Shown here in pieces: positions 38,869-47,762 of a stretch of 64,000 nucleotides of DNA. Origin of the DNA: Oscillospiraceae bacterium. Its GTDB lineage: Bacteria; Bacillota; Clostridia; Oscillospirales; Oscillospiraceae. Position numbers and translations under genes: made by a program. Under the pieces are notes generated by a model. It was not told the DNA's origin and ran no database searches. It saw only the letters and a program-made list of their open reading frames with translations. The stretch spans positions 38,777 to 102,776 of the forward strand of contig CADARY010000004.1 of assembly GCA_902790375.1 (NCBI GenBank), in the 5' to 3' direction. Position 1 is the first letter of the stretch, and the number at the start of each line of letters is the position of its first letter.

Positions 38869-38944
38869 GCTGGTATAGCTCAGTCGGTAGAGCAGCTGAT
38901 TCGTAATCAGCAGGTCGTGTGTTCGAGTCACATTACCAGCTCCA
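38869..38944 (+). tRNA. tRNA-Thr (anticodon CGT)
   Basis: Full cloverleaf: acceptor GCTGGTA pairs with TACCAGC; D stem GCTC/GAGC; anticodon stem GCTGA/TCAGC with loop TTCGTAA, giving anticodon CGT (38902-38904), which reads ACG threonine codons. The T arm has GTTCGAGTC. The discriminator base is T and CCA is encoded. The T discriminator agrees with the TGGA of the thrS T-box at 59954. Confidence 0.96.
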
Positions 38945-42908: not shown

Positions 42909-43065
42909 CGATCCTTTCTGCGCCGGAGCGGTACAGGGAAAAACTCACGTGCGTTTTCTTTCATGCTCTGACCTCGACAGGGAGTATGTTCCGTGCCGCA
43001 GCATATCACAGCCGGGGGGCGGGATGCAAGCTCTGCCGGAAAAACCGGCGAAGCGGCGCCCTCGC

Positions 43066-43093
43066 TTGACAGCTGAAAAAAAGCTGTTATAAT
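43066..43093 (+). promoter_or_regulatory. Consensus promoter of gtrA-like/glycosyltransferase operon
   Basis: TTGACA (43066-43071) and TATAAT (43088-43093), both perfect, with a 16-base spacer and extended TGT before the -10. By sequence it is among the strongest in the window. Confidence 0.8.
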
Positions 43094-43127
43094 GACCACT
43101 CGACTGCACAAATGGGAGTATGTGGAT

Positions 43128-43658
43128 ATGTCCCTTCTGAAAAAGCTGGACGCGCGGTTCGGCGATCATGCGCTCTGGCAATACGTCAAATTCAATCTGG
43201 TCTCCACGAGCATCACGCTCCTGCAGCTCCTGCTCGCCAATCTCCTGCCGCTGCTCTTTGACGGGGTGACAGCGAAGCTGCCGGCGTTTCTGAGGCCGGT
43301 GTTCCGGCCGGAGGTGCTGTTCGAGGGGCCATCGCCCTATGTGGTGGACGGAGTGGTCACCTGGGGCTTTGTGCTGCCCTTTTTCCTCTCCAACTTCATC
43401 GCCAATATCTACGGCTACTATATGAATATGAAAACCACCTTTCGCGGAAAAGGGAGCCGCGCAGGCTTCGTGCTGTATCTTGCGGTCCTCACGCTGCTGA
43501 TCCTGTTTTCCACCTGGCTGCAGGGCTATGTGACCGCAAAGCTCAGCGTGACGCCGCTTGCGGATTTCGCGCGGACGATCGCCGCCATGCTGGCAGGCTT
43601 TGTGCAGGTGGCTGTCCTGTTTCCGCTGGAAAAATTCGTACTGTTCAGGAAGGATTGA
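43128..43658 (+). CDS. GtrA-like membrane protein
   Basis: A 176-residue protein with four hydrophobic helices of the GtrA kind: WQYVKFNLVSTSITLLQLLLA opens it, NFIANIYGYYMNMKTTFRGKG is the typical loop before helix three, and it ends FPLEKFVLFRKD. GtrA-like proteins are thought to move lipid-linked sugars across the membrane for surface glycosylation, usually with a glycosyltransferase in the same operon, as here. The loop after helix two is longer than usual. The ATG at 43128 has GGGAG 9 bases upstream; the upstream in-frame ATG lies within the promoter. It ends 4 bp before the glycosyltransferase. Confidence 0.78.
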   Translation: MSLLKKLDARFGDHALWQYVKFNLVSTSITLLQLLLANLLPLLFDGVTAKLPAFLRPVFRPEVLFEGPSPYVVDGVVTWGFVLPFFLSNFIANIYGYYMNMKTTFRGKGSRAGFVLYLAVLTLLILFSTWLQGYVTAKLSVTPLADFARTIAAMLAGFVQVAVLFPLEKFVLFRKD

Positions 43659-43662
43659 GTGC

Positions 43663-44979
43663 ATGAAAAAGGTCAGTGTCATCGTTCCGGTCTATAACGG
43701 AGAAAAGCGCCTGAAGCGCTGCGTGGAGAGCATCCTCAACCAGGATTACCCGGAGCTGGAGCTGATCGCCGTGGACGACGGGAGCAGCGACGGCTCCTGG
43801 GAGATCCTGTGCGCCTGCGCTGAAAAGGACGGGCGCGTGAGGATCTTCCACAAGGAAAACGGCGGGGTGTCCTCCGCGCGCAACCGGGGCCTGGATGAGG
43901 CCTGCGGAGACTATGTGCAGTTTGTGGATGTGGACGACTGGCTGCCCATGGACGCCACAAAGCTGCTTGTGCGCGAGCTGGAGAAGACGGATGCCCAGCT
44001 TGTCGTGGGGGACTTCTACCGGGTGGTCAACATGAACGCGGCCGAAAAGGGACCCATCGAAAAGGGCGGTGTGCTTACAAAGCAGGCCTACGCCGACAAG
44101 ATGCTGCTGGGCCCGGCAGACCTCTATTTCGGCGTCCTGTGGAATAAGCTCTATCGTCGGGAGCTGATCGAACGGCACCATGTACGCATGGATGAGAACA
44201 TCAGCTACAGCGAGGACATGATCTTCAACCTTGAGTACCTCCTGCATGTGGACTCGGTGGCCATTCTCAAGGCGCCGGTCTACTATTACCAGTACACCAA
44301 GGGCTCCCTTGTTGATCAGAGCATGAATCTCAGCAGCACGGTGAGAATGAAGACCAGCGTCATCGGCTATTACAACAATTTTTTCAAGAACACCTTTGAC
44401 GCCCAAAGCTATCAGCAGCGCCTGCCCGTGGTGTACAGCTATCTGCTGGCTGTGAGCCGGGACAGTCTTGCCCTGCCCTTTGCCCACGGCACCCGCAGGC
44501 TGGGGGAGGACGGCGGCTTGTCTGCTCAGGCGGCCGCGGCTGTCGTGCAGATCCCCATGCAATGCGCGGCTCTCACCGAAAGGCTGATTCAGCGCTATCT
44601 GGAGACGCTTGCCCGCAAGACGGGGCTTGAGAGAAACGCGCTCGTGCTTTTATATCTGCTGGAAAAGCTGCCCGAGCCCTGTTCGGCGGATACGCTCGGC
44701 AGGCTTGCGGGCCTGGGAAAAGACGCGGTCGGCATGGCGCTGAACCAGCTGCTGTCCAAAGGTCTGGTGGAACGCAGCGACACGCGCATCGGTTTTCGGG
44801 CGCCTGAGCTGCGCGAGGAGTTCCGCCAGCTTGACCGTGACTTTGATGCGCTGCGCTTCGAGAGCTTCACCCCCGAGCAGATCAGCATCTACCGGGAACT
44901 GGAGGGCCGTATGAGCGCAAATATTCTCCGCCGCCTGCAGGGGGAGAATGCGGAAACGGGAAAGGACCAGAGCCCGTAA
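43663..44979 (+). CDS. Family 2 glycosyltransferase fused to MarR-like winged helix
   Basis: A 438-residue protein. Residues 1-235 are a GT-A glycosyltransferase: VSVIVPVYNGEKRL at the start, SILNQDYPELELIAVDDGSSDGS, ENGGVSSARNRGL, and the metal-binding DVDD at 89-92, with YSEDMIFN near 182. Residues about 303-427 look like a MarR-type DNA-binding domain: ALVLLYLLEKL, CSADTLGRLAGLGKDAVGMA, LNQLLSKGLVERSDTRI (wing) and the dimer helix FTPEQISIYRELEGRMSANIL. There is no frameshift; the frame is open throughout. Such a fusion is not one I know. A surface-sugar enzyme that also binds DNA, or a decayed regulator used as a dimer module, are both possible. The start is fixed by AGGAAGGA upstream. 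Confidence 0.8.
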   Translation: MKKVSVIVPVYNGEKRLKRCVESILNQDYPELELIAVDDGSSDGSWEILCACAEKDGRVRIFHKENGGVSSARNRGLDEACGDYVQFVDVDDWLPMDATKLLVRELEKTDAQLVVGDFYRVVNMNAAEKGPIEKGGVLTKQAYADKMLLGPADLYFGVLWNKLYRRELIERHHVRMDENISYSEDMIFNLEYLLHVDSVAILKAPVYYYQYTKGSLVDQSMNLSSTVRMKTSVIGYYNNFFKNTFDAQSYQQRLPVVYSYLLAVSRDSLALPFAHGTRRLGEDGGLSAQAAAAVVQIPMQCAALTERLIQRYLETLARKTGLERNALVLLYLLEKLPEPCSADTLGRLAGLGKDAVGMALNQLLSKGLVERSDTRIGFRAPELREEFRQLDRDFDALRFESFTPEQISIYRELEGRMSANILRRLQGENAETGKDQSP

Positions 44980-45002: not shown

Positions 45003-45042
45003 GAAAAGGGGAGCCATCCGCTGTGGATGGCTCTCCTCTTTT
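45003..45042. terminator. Bidirectional terminator between glycosyltransferase and VWA genes
   Basis: AAAAGGGGAGCCATCC and GGATGGCTCTCCTCTTTT form a long stem with A and T runs, between convergent genes. Confidence 0.85.
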
Positions 45043-45059: not shown

Positions 45060-47762
45060 TTACTTCTTGCCGAAGTTATTCAGGAGCGTGATCGCCGATG
45101 CGGGCGCCACCACCGCAAGCCCGATGCCGAGTATAAGCCAGGTCATGTTCTTCTCCGTGAGCGTCACGGGGATCTCCGCGCTCAGACCCAGGGCATCCGT
45201 CGCTGTGACGGTGAACGCTGCCTCGCCGAGACCACGGCAGTCTGCCTTCAGCACACCGTCCTCGATTTTCACAGCGCCGTTATAATCGTCCGAGAGCGCA
45301 TAGCTGAGCGCCGTTCCCTTGGGGTCTTCAAAGAGAGCGCCGAGCTCCTGCTCCCAGGTGCCCTTCTGGAAAAGCCCGGTCCTCACGGTCTCGTTGATGC
45401 CGTCGCTCTTCGCCGCGGGAGCGGGGAAGTGCAGGGAGAAGGGGAGCGCGCTGCTGAAGCCATGGGCGTCCGTCGCCGTTACGGTGAAGGAGGCTTCCTC
45501 TCTGCCGTCGGGCCGCACGTTCAGCACGCCGTTTTCGATCGTCACCGACCCGCCCAGATCATCGGAGAGCGTATACTGGAGGCCGTTCCCGGCGGGATCG
45601 TCAAAGAGCGTGTCCAATCTGAGCTCCCAGTGATCCCCGGCAAAGCTCCCGCTTGAAACGGGGTCGGAGACCTCGGTACTCTTCGCCTCAGGGATGGCCA
45701 CGGAGAGCGAGAGGGGGAGCTCTGCTGTGGTTCCTTCGGCGTTCGCTGCCGTCACGGTGAAGTCGGCATTGCCGCCGAGCGCTTCGAGATCCACGCGCAG
45801 CACGCCGTTTTCGATCCTGACTGCGCCGCCCAGATCGTCAGACAGGGTATAGGTACAATCATCGGCGGAGGCAAAGCATTCCTCAAGCGCCAGCTCCCAG
45901 ACCCCGTCCTGCAGGGCGCCGAGAGCGGTCGGGTCCGTGCCCTCCGTCAGCTTTGCCACAGGCGTCGGTATCGGCGTGGGTACAGGCGTGGGTACAGGCG
46001 TGGGTTCGGGCGTGGGTACAGGCGTGGGCTTGGGCGTAGGTACAGGCGTGGGCTCGGGCGTAGGTACAGGCGTGGGCTCGGGCGTAGGTACAGGCGCGGG
46101 CTCGGGCGTAGGTACAGGCGCGGGCTCGGGCGTAGGTACAGGCGCGGGCTCGGGCACGTCGAGATCAAAGGGGAGCGTAACGCTCTGCCCGTAGGAGTCG
46201 GTGGCGGTCACGGTGAAAGGCGCTGCCTCACTGAGCTTCACGCGCAGCACACCGTCCACGATCTCCGCCGCCCCGCCGAGATCGTCCGAAAGCGTGTAGC
46301 TGAGCGCGCCGCCCTTGGGATCGTCAAAGAGCTCGTCCAGCGGAACCTCCCACACGTTATCGCTGACGCTGCCGAGCTCCGAATAAGTGGAAACAAGGCT
46401 CTCTTTTGCTGCGGGGAGGGGGACCAGAACCTGGGCGGCAAGCGGATTGGACAGAAGATCGAAGTCGGACAGATCCACAACGGCGGTCAGCTCGTAGCGT
46501 CCGCCCCGGTCAAAGCTGAGCTCACAGAGATACCTGCCGTCTTCCAGGGTCATGGGATACGTCGCCGTCTCACCCGTGTCGAGATCCCGGACACTCAGCG
46601 TGCAGGCGATGTCTCGCAGCTTCTCGTCCGGGACGAGGCCATCCGTGTCGCTGACATGGGCGGCGACGCGGATGGGCTTCAGGACCTCAAGAGAATCCAT
46701 GGCCGACTCGCAGGAGAGCGCAACGCTCATGCTGGCGTTATAGATCATGCAAACATCGATGGAGTCGCCGGGATTGCCGCTGAGCGCGACCTTCCATTCC
46801 CCGGCTGCGGGCTCGGGAATCTTGGCCAGCAGGAAACGGGAGGTTTCCAGAATGTGCCCGTCAATGCTGTAGTCCTTCCCGTCCGGCCCGGTGATGCGCA
46901 GACTTGCGGGATCGACGGAGGCACCGTCATGCTCGATGACGATGTTGACCTCCTCCGCCCCGAGGGACGGGACCGTAAAGGCGGCTTCCATCTCGCCGTG
47001 CTCCGAAAAGTCGACCCGGTGCGCGCTGTTATACTCGGTCCGGTTGATGATCGAATAGAAACGCCCGAAGGCCGTCGTCAGATCCCCGGGGGCGGAGACC
47101 GTCTCCACCTGGCCCAGAGTGCCGTCGGTGAAGAAGCGCAGCTCCTGCTCCCCGTTTCGGGCCATGCCGTTTACGTTCAGGAGGATGCCGTGGATCGTGA
47201 TGCCGTTTGCCTGCGCCGTCTCCAGCGCCTTCCGGGCGGCCTGTCCGGACTGCTCGCGCAGGATGGTGGAGCCGCCGGAGGTGAAATCGGTCATGCCGTC
47301 GGTCAGCAGCAGGATCGTGCAGGGCAGGCCGTTCTTCTCCCGCATACCGCCGAGCTCCTCCGTCGCCCGCAGCATGGCCGACCCGATGTCGGTATCGTAG
47401 CTGGGACGGAGCGCCTCTGCCGCCTCCACGAGGGCCTTCTTGTCCTCCATGCTGTTGATGGGCTGCAGGCCCGAATCATAGCGGATCGCCTCGTCAAAGG
47501 CGATCACGCCGACGTTGTTGCCCTTTTCGGTCAGAAGTCCGAGAAAGAGCCGCATGGCGTCAAAGCGCAGCCCGTCGGGGTCGGTCCCGATGCCGTTCAT
47601 GTCGCGAAGACTCCCGCTCTTATCCATGACCAGCACAACATTATAGCGGTTGGCAAGAGAGATATTCTCCTCCGCATCGGCTGCGACAGGACACAAACGC
47701 ATGAGTGTAAACAGAAAGACGGAAGCGAGAAGGGACGCAAGCAGTTTCTGCATTCTTTTCAT
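45060..47762 (-). CDS. Exported VWA protein with cadherin-like repeats and C-terminal membrane anchor
   Basis: A 900-residue protein. A signal peptide (to about residue 30, ending PVAADA) is followed by a von Willebrand A domain with the MIDAS motif [12 protein letters not shown] (about 43-54) and [10 protein letters not shown]. After an unassigned beta region come four copies of a cadherin-like domain, each with a core like [15 protein letters not shown] and FTVTATD. A Pro-rich linker of PEPTPVPT-type repeats separates copies one and two. The end is one transmembrane helix, [20 protein letters not shown], then NNFGKK, with no LPXTG, so it stays membrane-anchored. VWA-MIDAS domains usually bind ligands through a metal ion. 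Adhesin or wall-sensing are possible roles. GGAGG precedes the ATG at 47762. Confidence 0.85.
45958..46155. repeat. Tandem repeat encoding PEPTPVPT linker
   Basis: Imperfect 24-bp units (GGCGTAGGTACAGGCGTGGG type on the plus strand) within the VWA gene, about eight units, coding on the minus strand for alternating PEP(T/A)PVPT. Such arrays change length easily. Confidence 0.85.

Follow-up and report, generated by a model that had tools for sequence, protein, structure and literature searches.

A GT2 glycosyltransferase of gut and rumen bacteria carries a MarR-derived domain that may serve dimerisation or docking rather than DNA reading

We analysed a window of 64,000 nucleotides from an Oscillospiraceae bacterium (GenBank assembly GCA_902790375.1, contig CADARY010000004.1) and found that one of its genes, at 43663..44979 on the plus strand (stop codon included), encodes a 438-residue protein in which a family 2 glycosyltransferase (GT2) is joined to a winged-helix domain of the MarR type. 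The C-terminal domain descends from MarR DNA-binding regulators. Comparative sequence evidence suggests that, in the lineage of the window, this domain has lost specific DNA reading and been co-opted as a dimerisation or docking module on the enzyme, a reading to which we assign a probability of roughly 0.55. The original prediction had described the same fusion and cast it as a DNA-binding regulator linking surface glycosylation to gene control; the fusion itself was borne out, and the regulatory role is weighed below.

The open frame is intact, and relatives match it in both length and layout. Residues 1-220 (43663..44322) form the GT-A, or GT2 catalytic, domain, which includes DVDD at residues 89-92 (43927-43938) and ED at residues 184-185 (44212-44217). 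A helical linker, delimited by AlphaFold2 secondary structure and predicted local distance difference test (pLDDT) scores, spans residues 221-297 (44323..44553), with the model less confident around residues 261-300 (block pLDDT 61-73). The MarR-fold domain follows at residues 298-436 (44554..44970), all of these on the plus strand. The fusion layout was found in many separate records, and a sequencing error or a chimera of two genes was rejected as its source.

By its motifs, the N-terminal part is a GT2 glycosyltransferase with an intact enzyme core, as the original prediction, citing the DVDD, had proposed. It matches PF00535 at 132.5 bits (cut-off 23.3), and the Glycos_transf_2 profile was matched at E<=0.01 by 66/66 aligned full-length fusion rows (59 from the best 80 loci of a genome-collection scan, six from a 400-genome search within the window's taxonomic family, and the window protein). 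DxD-type catalytic or metal-binding acids are a GT2 motif, and D89, D91, D92 and D185 are invariant in these 66 rows. When the whole-protein model was compared with solved structures, GT2 chains filled the list and gave no information on the C-terminal domain, which was therefore modelled separately. The solved relatives of the enzyme include CgT (its structure titled 'in hexamer'), TarP and TarS, the last two being trimers. The window's own genome holds 14 GT2 matches counting the fusion itself, and none of the others aligns past residue 265.

Sequence, profile and fold all identify the C-terminal domain as MarR. Pfam MarR_2 matches the window protein at 28.2 bits (cut-off 27) and was matched by 41/66 fusion rows at E<=0.01. 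Profile-profile comparison (hhalign) against MarR gave 99.4%, and the domain modelled alone adopted a high-confidence MarR fold with SlyA as its best solved match and with elements alpha1 to alpha6 plus the wing in MarR order. Two other identities were rejected on these grounds: a helical glycosyltransferase accessory domain mistaken for a winged helix, and a peptide-binding domain of the RiPP (ribosomally synthesised and post-translationally modified peptide) recognition element (RRE) type, the element order being that of MarR.

The GT2-MarR fusion recurs across genomes of gut and rumen bacteria. A genome-collection scan returned 448 related places, and the 80 best were taken as loci for analysis; their record titles name Oscillospiraceae/Ruminococcaceae, Lachnospiraceae, Erysipelotrichaceae, a Christensenella, and unplaced Clostridia or Bacillota. 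For 77 of these 80 loci, the match extends through the C-terminal domain, to at least residue 274 of the 292-residue query; the exceptions are L127, whose match ends at 223 while the frame continues, L119, which ends at 137, and L111, which is cut by the contig. A C-terminal query against the 400 genomes of the window's family matched 29 of them and returned 30 loci. Twelve of these are the fusion (window included), two being truncated where a contig begins; L018 is a 152-residue piece at a contig start with no glycosyltransferase part visible. A second sample of 300 genomes from the same family, searched with a full-length profile (E<=1e-70, one match per genome), gave 37 matches: 15 nearly full-length, 21 to the glycosyltransferase part only (at least one of which sits at a contig end) and one edge match covering residues 152-435. 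An order-level sample gave 13 matches in 295 genomes, and a phylum-level sample gave 2 in 398, namely the window's own and one with the glycosyltransferase only. A scan of viral contigs for a phage origin gave 10 stretches matched by pattern, none of which was confirmed. The same order and phylum also hold subfamily members whose proteins stop short of the MarR domain (L048-L057, L220), so the enzyme can exist without the domain.

To judge whether the domain reads DNA, we compared the mean pairwise identity of its recognition helix with that of the whole domain. In the window protein the model places this helix, alpha4, at residues 353-365 (KDAVGMALNQLLS; 44719..44757, plus strand). Three fusion clades covering 51 of the 66 rows (the remaining 15 being omitted) were tested: the window clade (11 rows), a mostly Erysipelotrichaceae set (15) and a Lachnospiraceae/Oscillospiraceae branch (25). 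Clade names were taken from sequence records, with mixed naming within the window clade, and the tree was built by a quick method, with weak support at many forks and two distant sequences from the window's own genome as outgroup. Ortholog sets of stand-alone MarR proteins from the window's taxonomic family served as controls. Helix/domain ratios in the fusions were 1.01, 0.91 and 1.00, respectively, compared with 1.30 (23 rows), 1.32 (31 rows) and 1.29 (five rows, with no bootstrap interval for the helix) in the controls; a six-row set overlapping the 23-row set gave 1.36. Bootstrap intervals for the fusions (0.92-1.09, 0.84-1.00 and 0.90-1.09) did not overlap those of the two large controls (1.19-1.41 and 1.27-1.38).

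The outward face of the helix, the wing and the charge of the domain were also compared between fusions and stand-alone regulators. Outward helix positions, picked through helix geometry and not from a DNA complex, were hydrophobic at a fraction of 0.57 in the window clade, 0.50 in the Erysipelotrichaceae set (these two being the GtrA-linked sets) and 0.29 in the Lachnospiraceae/Oscillospiraceae branch, compared with 0.23 in 41 stand-alone controls. These controls, which were not individually rescanned, comprise 24/30 loci of one set (omitting L141, L154-L157 and L161) and 17/18 non-fusion loci of the 400-genome search (omitting L042). The D-x-R motif of the MarR wing occupies the aligned columns in 9/66 fusions, compared with 33/41 controls, and the median isoelectric point of the domain is 6.05 versus 7.81. 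As a separate observation on the wing, the fusion protein of L127 (3563-5014) carries a long, charged, lysine-rich insertion there.

An operator was also sought. The original prediction had suggested looking for a palindrome near 43040-43128, and the window does contain an inverted repeat there, ACAGCT-N7-AGCTGT (43069..43087, plus strand), the sole operator candidate. It lies within a 12/12 match to a sigma-70 promoter (TTGACA, 16 nt, TATAAT; 43066..43093, plus strand), overlapping the -35 hexamer and ending beside the -10, and it is unique in the window, with 0.01 occurrences expected. However, it is not conserved: L058 alone among the loci compared shares it, and the L058 protein is identical to the window's at 416/438 residues. 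The repeat could be the operator of some other repressor. The comparison covered 150 nt upstream of 37 GtrA-linked and 34 other fusion loci, omitting five near-duplicates and loci with less than 150 nt. Inverted repeats were found in 26/37 regions upstream of GtrA genes (shuffle mean 13.1), with a less clear excess upstream of the other fusion genes (17/34, compared with 12.3 in shuffles); we suspect that the excess reflects terminators of the preceding gene. No palindrome arm word was present in more than 4/37 GtrA-linked or 2/34 other regions; the commonest, GGGCTG, reached 4/37 (shuffle maximum 2). Taken together, the results on the helix, the wing and the operator make a sequence-specific regulator less likely in the window's lineage.

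The domain is maintained. Between the window and L058, the ratio of nonsynonymous to synonymous substitution rates (dN/dS) is 0.063 in the glycosyltransferase part and 0.088 in the MarR domain, and purifying selection acts on both. Alpha1, the dimer-forming helix of MarR proteins, exceeds the domain mean in conservation in two of the three sets, at 1.55 in the Lachnospiraceae/Oscillospiraceae branch and at 1.13 in the window clade. We infer that, in the window's lineage, the MarR-derived domain has ceased to recognise a specific DNA site, and that the retained fold may pair enzyme copies or hold the enzyme against a partner.

A plausible docking partner, where present, is the co-encoded GtrA-like membrane protein, which would place sugar transfer at the membrane. 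Its gene (176 residues; 43128..43658, plus strand; PF04138 E 3.6e-5) is separated from the fusion gene by 4 nt, and the fusion gene is followed by a terminator-like hairpin (45007..45037, plus strand); the fusion gene is apparently second in a two-gene unit of promoter, GtrA-like gene, fusion gene and hairpin. The window's GtrA-like protein is borderline for PF04138 (24.4 bits, cut-off 26.1), and the cut-off was passed by 2/6 scanned GtrA-like proteins, the window's being among the six and the two being the orthologs in L088 and L100. The gene was found in 43 of the 80 loci; almost no upstream sequence is available at L065, L074 and L120. The GtrA-positive rows of the tree all belong to one clade of 37 rows (SH-aLRT, the Shimodaira-Hasegawa-like approximate likelihood ratio test, 100), 28 of which have the gene; none was found in the rows tested outside it, including the solitary Lachnospiraceae/Oscillospiraceae branch.

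Several observations weigh against a domain that has given up DNA for docking. Nine of the 37 rows in the GtrA clade lack the GtrA-like gene, as does L071, which lies outside the tree and has upstream sequence; because of these and the solitary branch, docking to GtrA cannot account for the domain everywhere. In the Erysipelotrichaceae set, the conservation of alpha1 is close to the domain mean (0.98). Tighter limits for the helix lift the Lachnospiraceae/Oscillospiraceae ratio to 1.10 (1.00-1.20), with controls at 1.32-1.48, and when alpha3 and alpha4 are taken jointly the contrast is small, control B (1.08; 1.04-1.12) overlapping that branch (0.98; 0.91-1.05). The controls were collected with MarR queries and the fusions with glycosyltransferase motifs, which may bias the controls towards conserved helices, and a regulator whose sites varied among species would have a variable helix too. 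The helix is net basic, with a mean charge of +1.83 compared with +1.17 in controls, and is positive in 94% of the 66 rows compared with 76%. The window protein itself is among the nine with the wing motif, at D373-T374-R375, the tip of a shortened hairpin (residues 369-378, from the model and alignment with stand-alone MarRs; 44767..44796, plus strand; strands modelled at 369-372 and 375-378). The fusion domain might still bind DNA, chiefly in the solitary Lachnospiraceae/Oscillospiraceae branch.

One alternative is a bifunctional enzyme-regulator, as originally predicted, whose MarR domain would bind DNA, perhaps at its own promoter, and tie the state of the enzyme to expression. The complete MarR fold, the basic helix, the D-T-R of the window protein, the rare repeat inside a perfect promoter and the MarR-like outward residues of the solitary branch are all consistent with it. 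On the other side stand three clades without helix-specific conservation, an outward face that is mostly hydrophobic in the window clade, a wing motif missing in 57/66 rows, and a repeat confined to L058 with no widely common arm word; we consider this explanation unlikely. The original prediction survives in part: the fusion and its MarR ancestry are real, and the positive helix and the window's wing motif speak for a regulator, but a regulator role is unsupported in this lineage by the helix ratios, the outward face, the scarcity of D-x-R and an operator candidate that recurs in just one close relative among the loci compared.

The fusions might also form a series in transition, with the solitary branch (helix type SRxxLSxxLQRL) representing a DNA-reading enzyme-regulator and the GtrA-linked branch a form whose helix turned hydrophobic and was redirected to a membrane partner, a scenario that we hold to be rather improbable. 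Within the solitary branch, a subgroup (L113, L118, L122 and L129) has an arginine-rich helix start, SRPRL or SRTRL, and a domain net charge of +5 to +7; its members would be the likeliest candidates for true DNA binding.

MarR-family regulators often bind small ligands close to the dimer interface, and the domain could instead be an allosteric sensor that has retained the ligand pocket, a small molecule switching the glycosyltransferase on or off. Several of the solved structural matches are titled as ligand complexes, and in the Lachnospiraceae/Oscillospiraceae branch no part of the domain is more conserved than alpha1; however, relatives of the same subfamily do without the domain, and we find a sensor role quite doubtful. 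Least probable is a near-neutral relic of an accidental fusion with the domain as a passive tail: it would suit the lower mean identity of the domain (0.54, compared with 0.79 for the enzyme, in the window clade) and the existence of relatives with the glycosyltransferase only, but the domain shows dN/dS of 0.07-0.29 in the 9 of 10 pairs that allowed its computation (two with saturated dS), its reading frame is preserved in several bacterial families as named in the record titles, and its fold is modelled with high confidence.

Several known systems resemble the fusion in part. CgT (5hea; 'GalT1'), TarP and TarS have other C-terminal parts, and their aligned ranges end before the MarR domain of the fusion. 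MarR/SlyA regulators share its sequence profile, fold and alpha1-alpha6 order; unlike them, the fusion domain is attached to an enzyme, shows no extra constraint on the helix and rarely keeps the wing motif. GtrA/DPMS-type systems likewise encode a GT2 enzyme beside a PF04138-type membrane protein, but the MarR domain is extra in the fusion, and a polyprenyl-phosphate acceptor is not indicated. The nearest reported system that we found is that of the RREs, peptide-binding winged-helix domains reported as fused to PF00535 glycosyltransferases (PMC12710340); the RRE is a different type of winged helix, the domain of the fusion having the MarR order. A literature search, with most subscription journals outside its reach, turned up neither a GT2-MarR fusion nor a paper on MarR proteins that do not bind DNA.

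The MarR fold is common among bacterial regulators, and a full MarR domain riding on an enzyme, seemingly freed of the constraint of reading DNA, would be a case of a repressor fold becoming a structural or docking part. The relatives with the glycosyltransferase only, and the clades with versus without the GtrA-like gene, are natural controls for this proposal. If some members do bind DNA, they would provide a direct link between glycosylation and gene control. For annotation, a MarR match need not imply a 'transcription regulator'.

The rest of the neighbourhood encodes unrelated proteins: DUF362, ArsP permease, M29 peptidase, YgjV-like, VWA and GGDEF. A tRNA-Thr (CGT) gene at 38869-38944 overlaps a probably spurious minus-strand open reading frame of 160 residues. 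The minus-strand gene for the VWA-domain protein contains about eight tandem copies of a 24-bp unit (45958-46155), which encode a proline-rich stretch of the PTPEPTP type.
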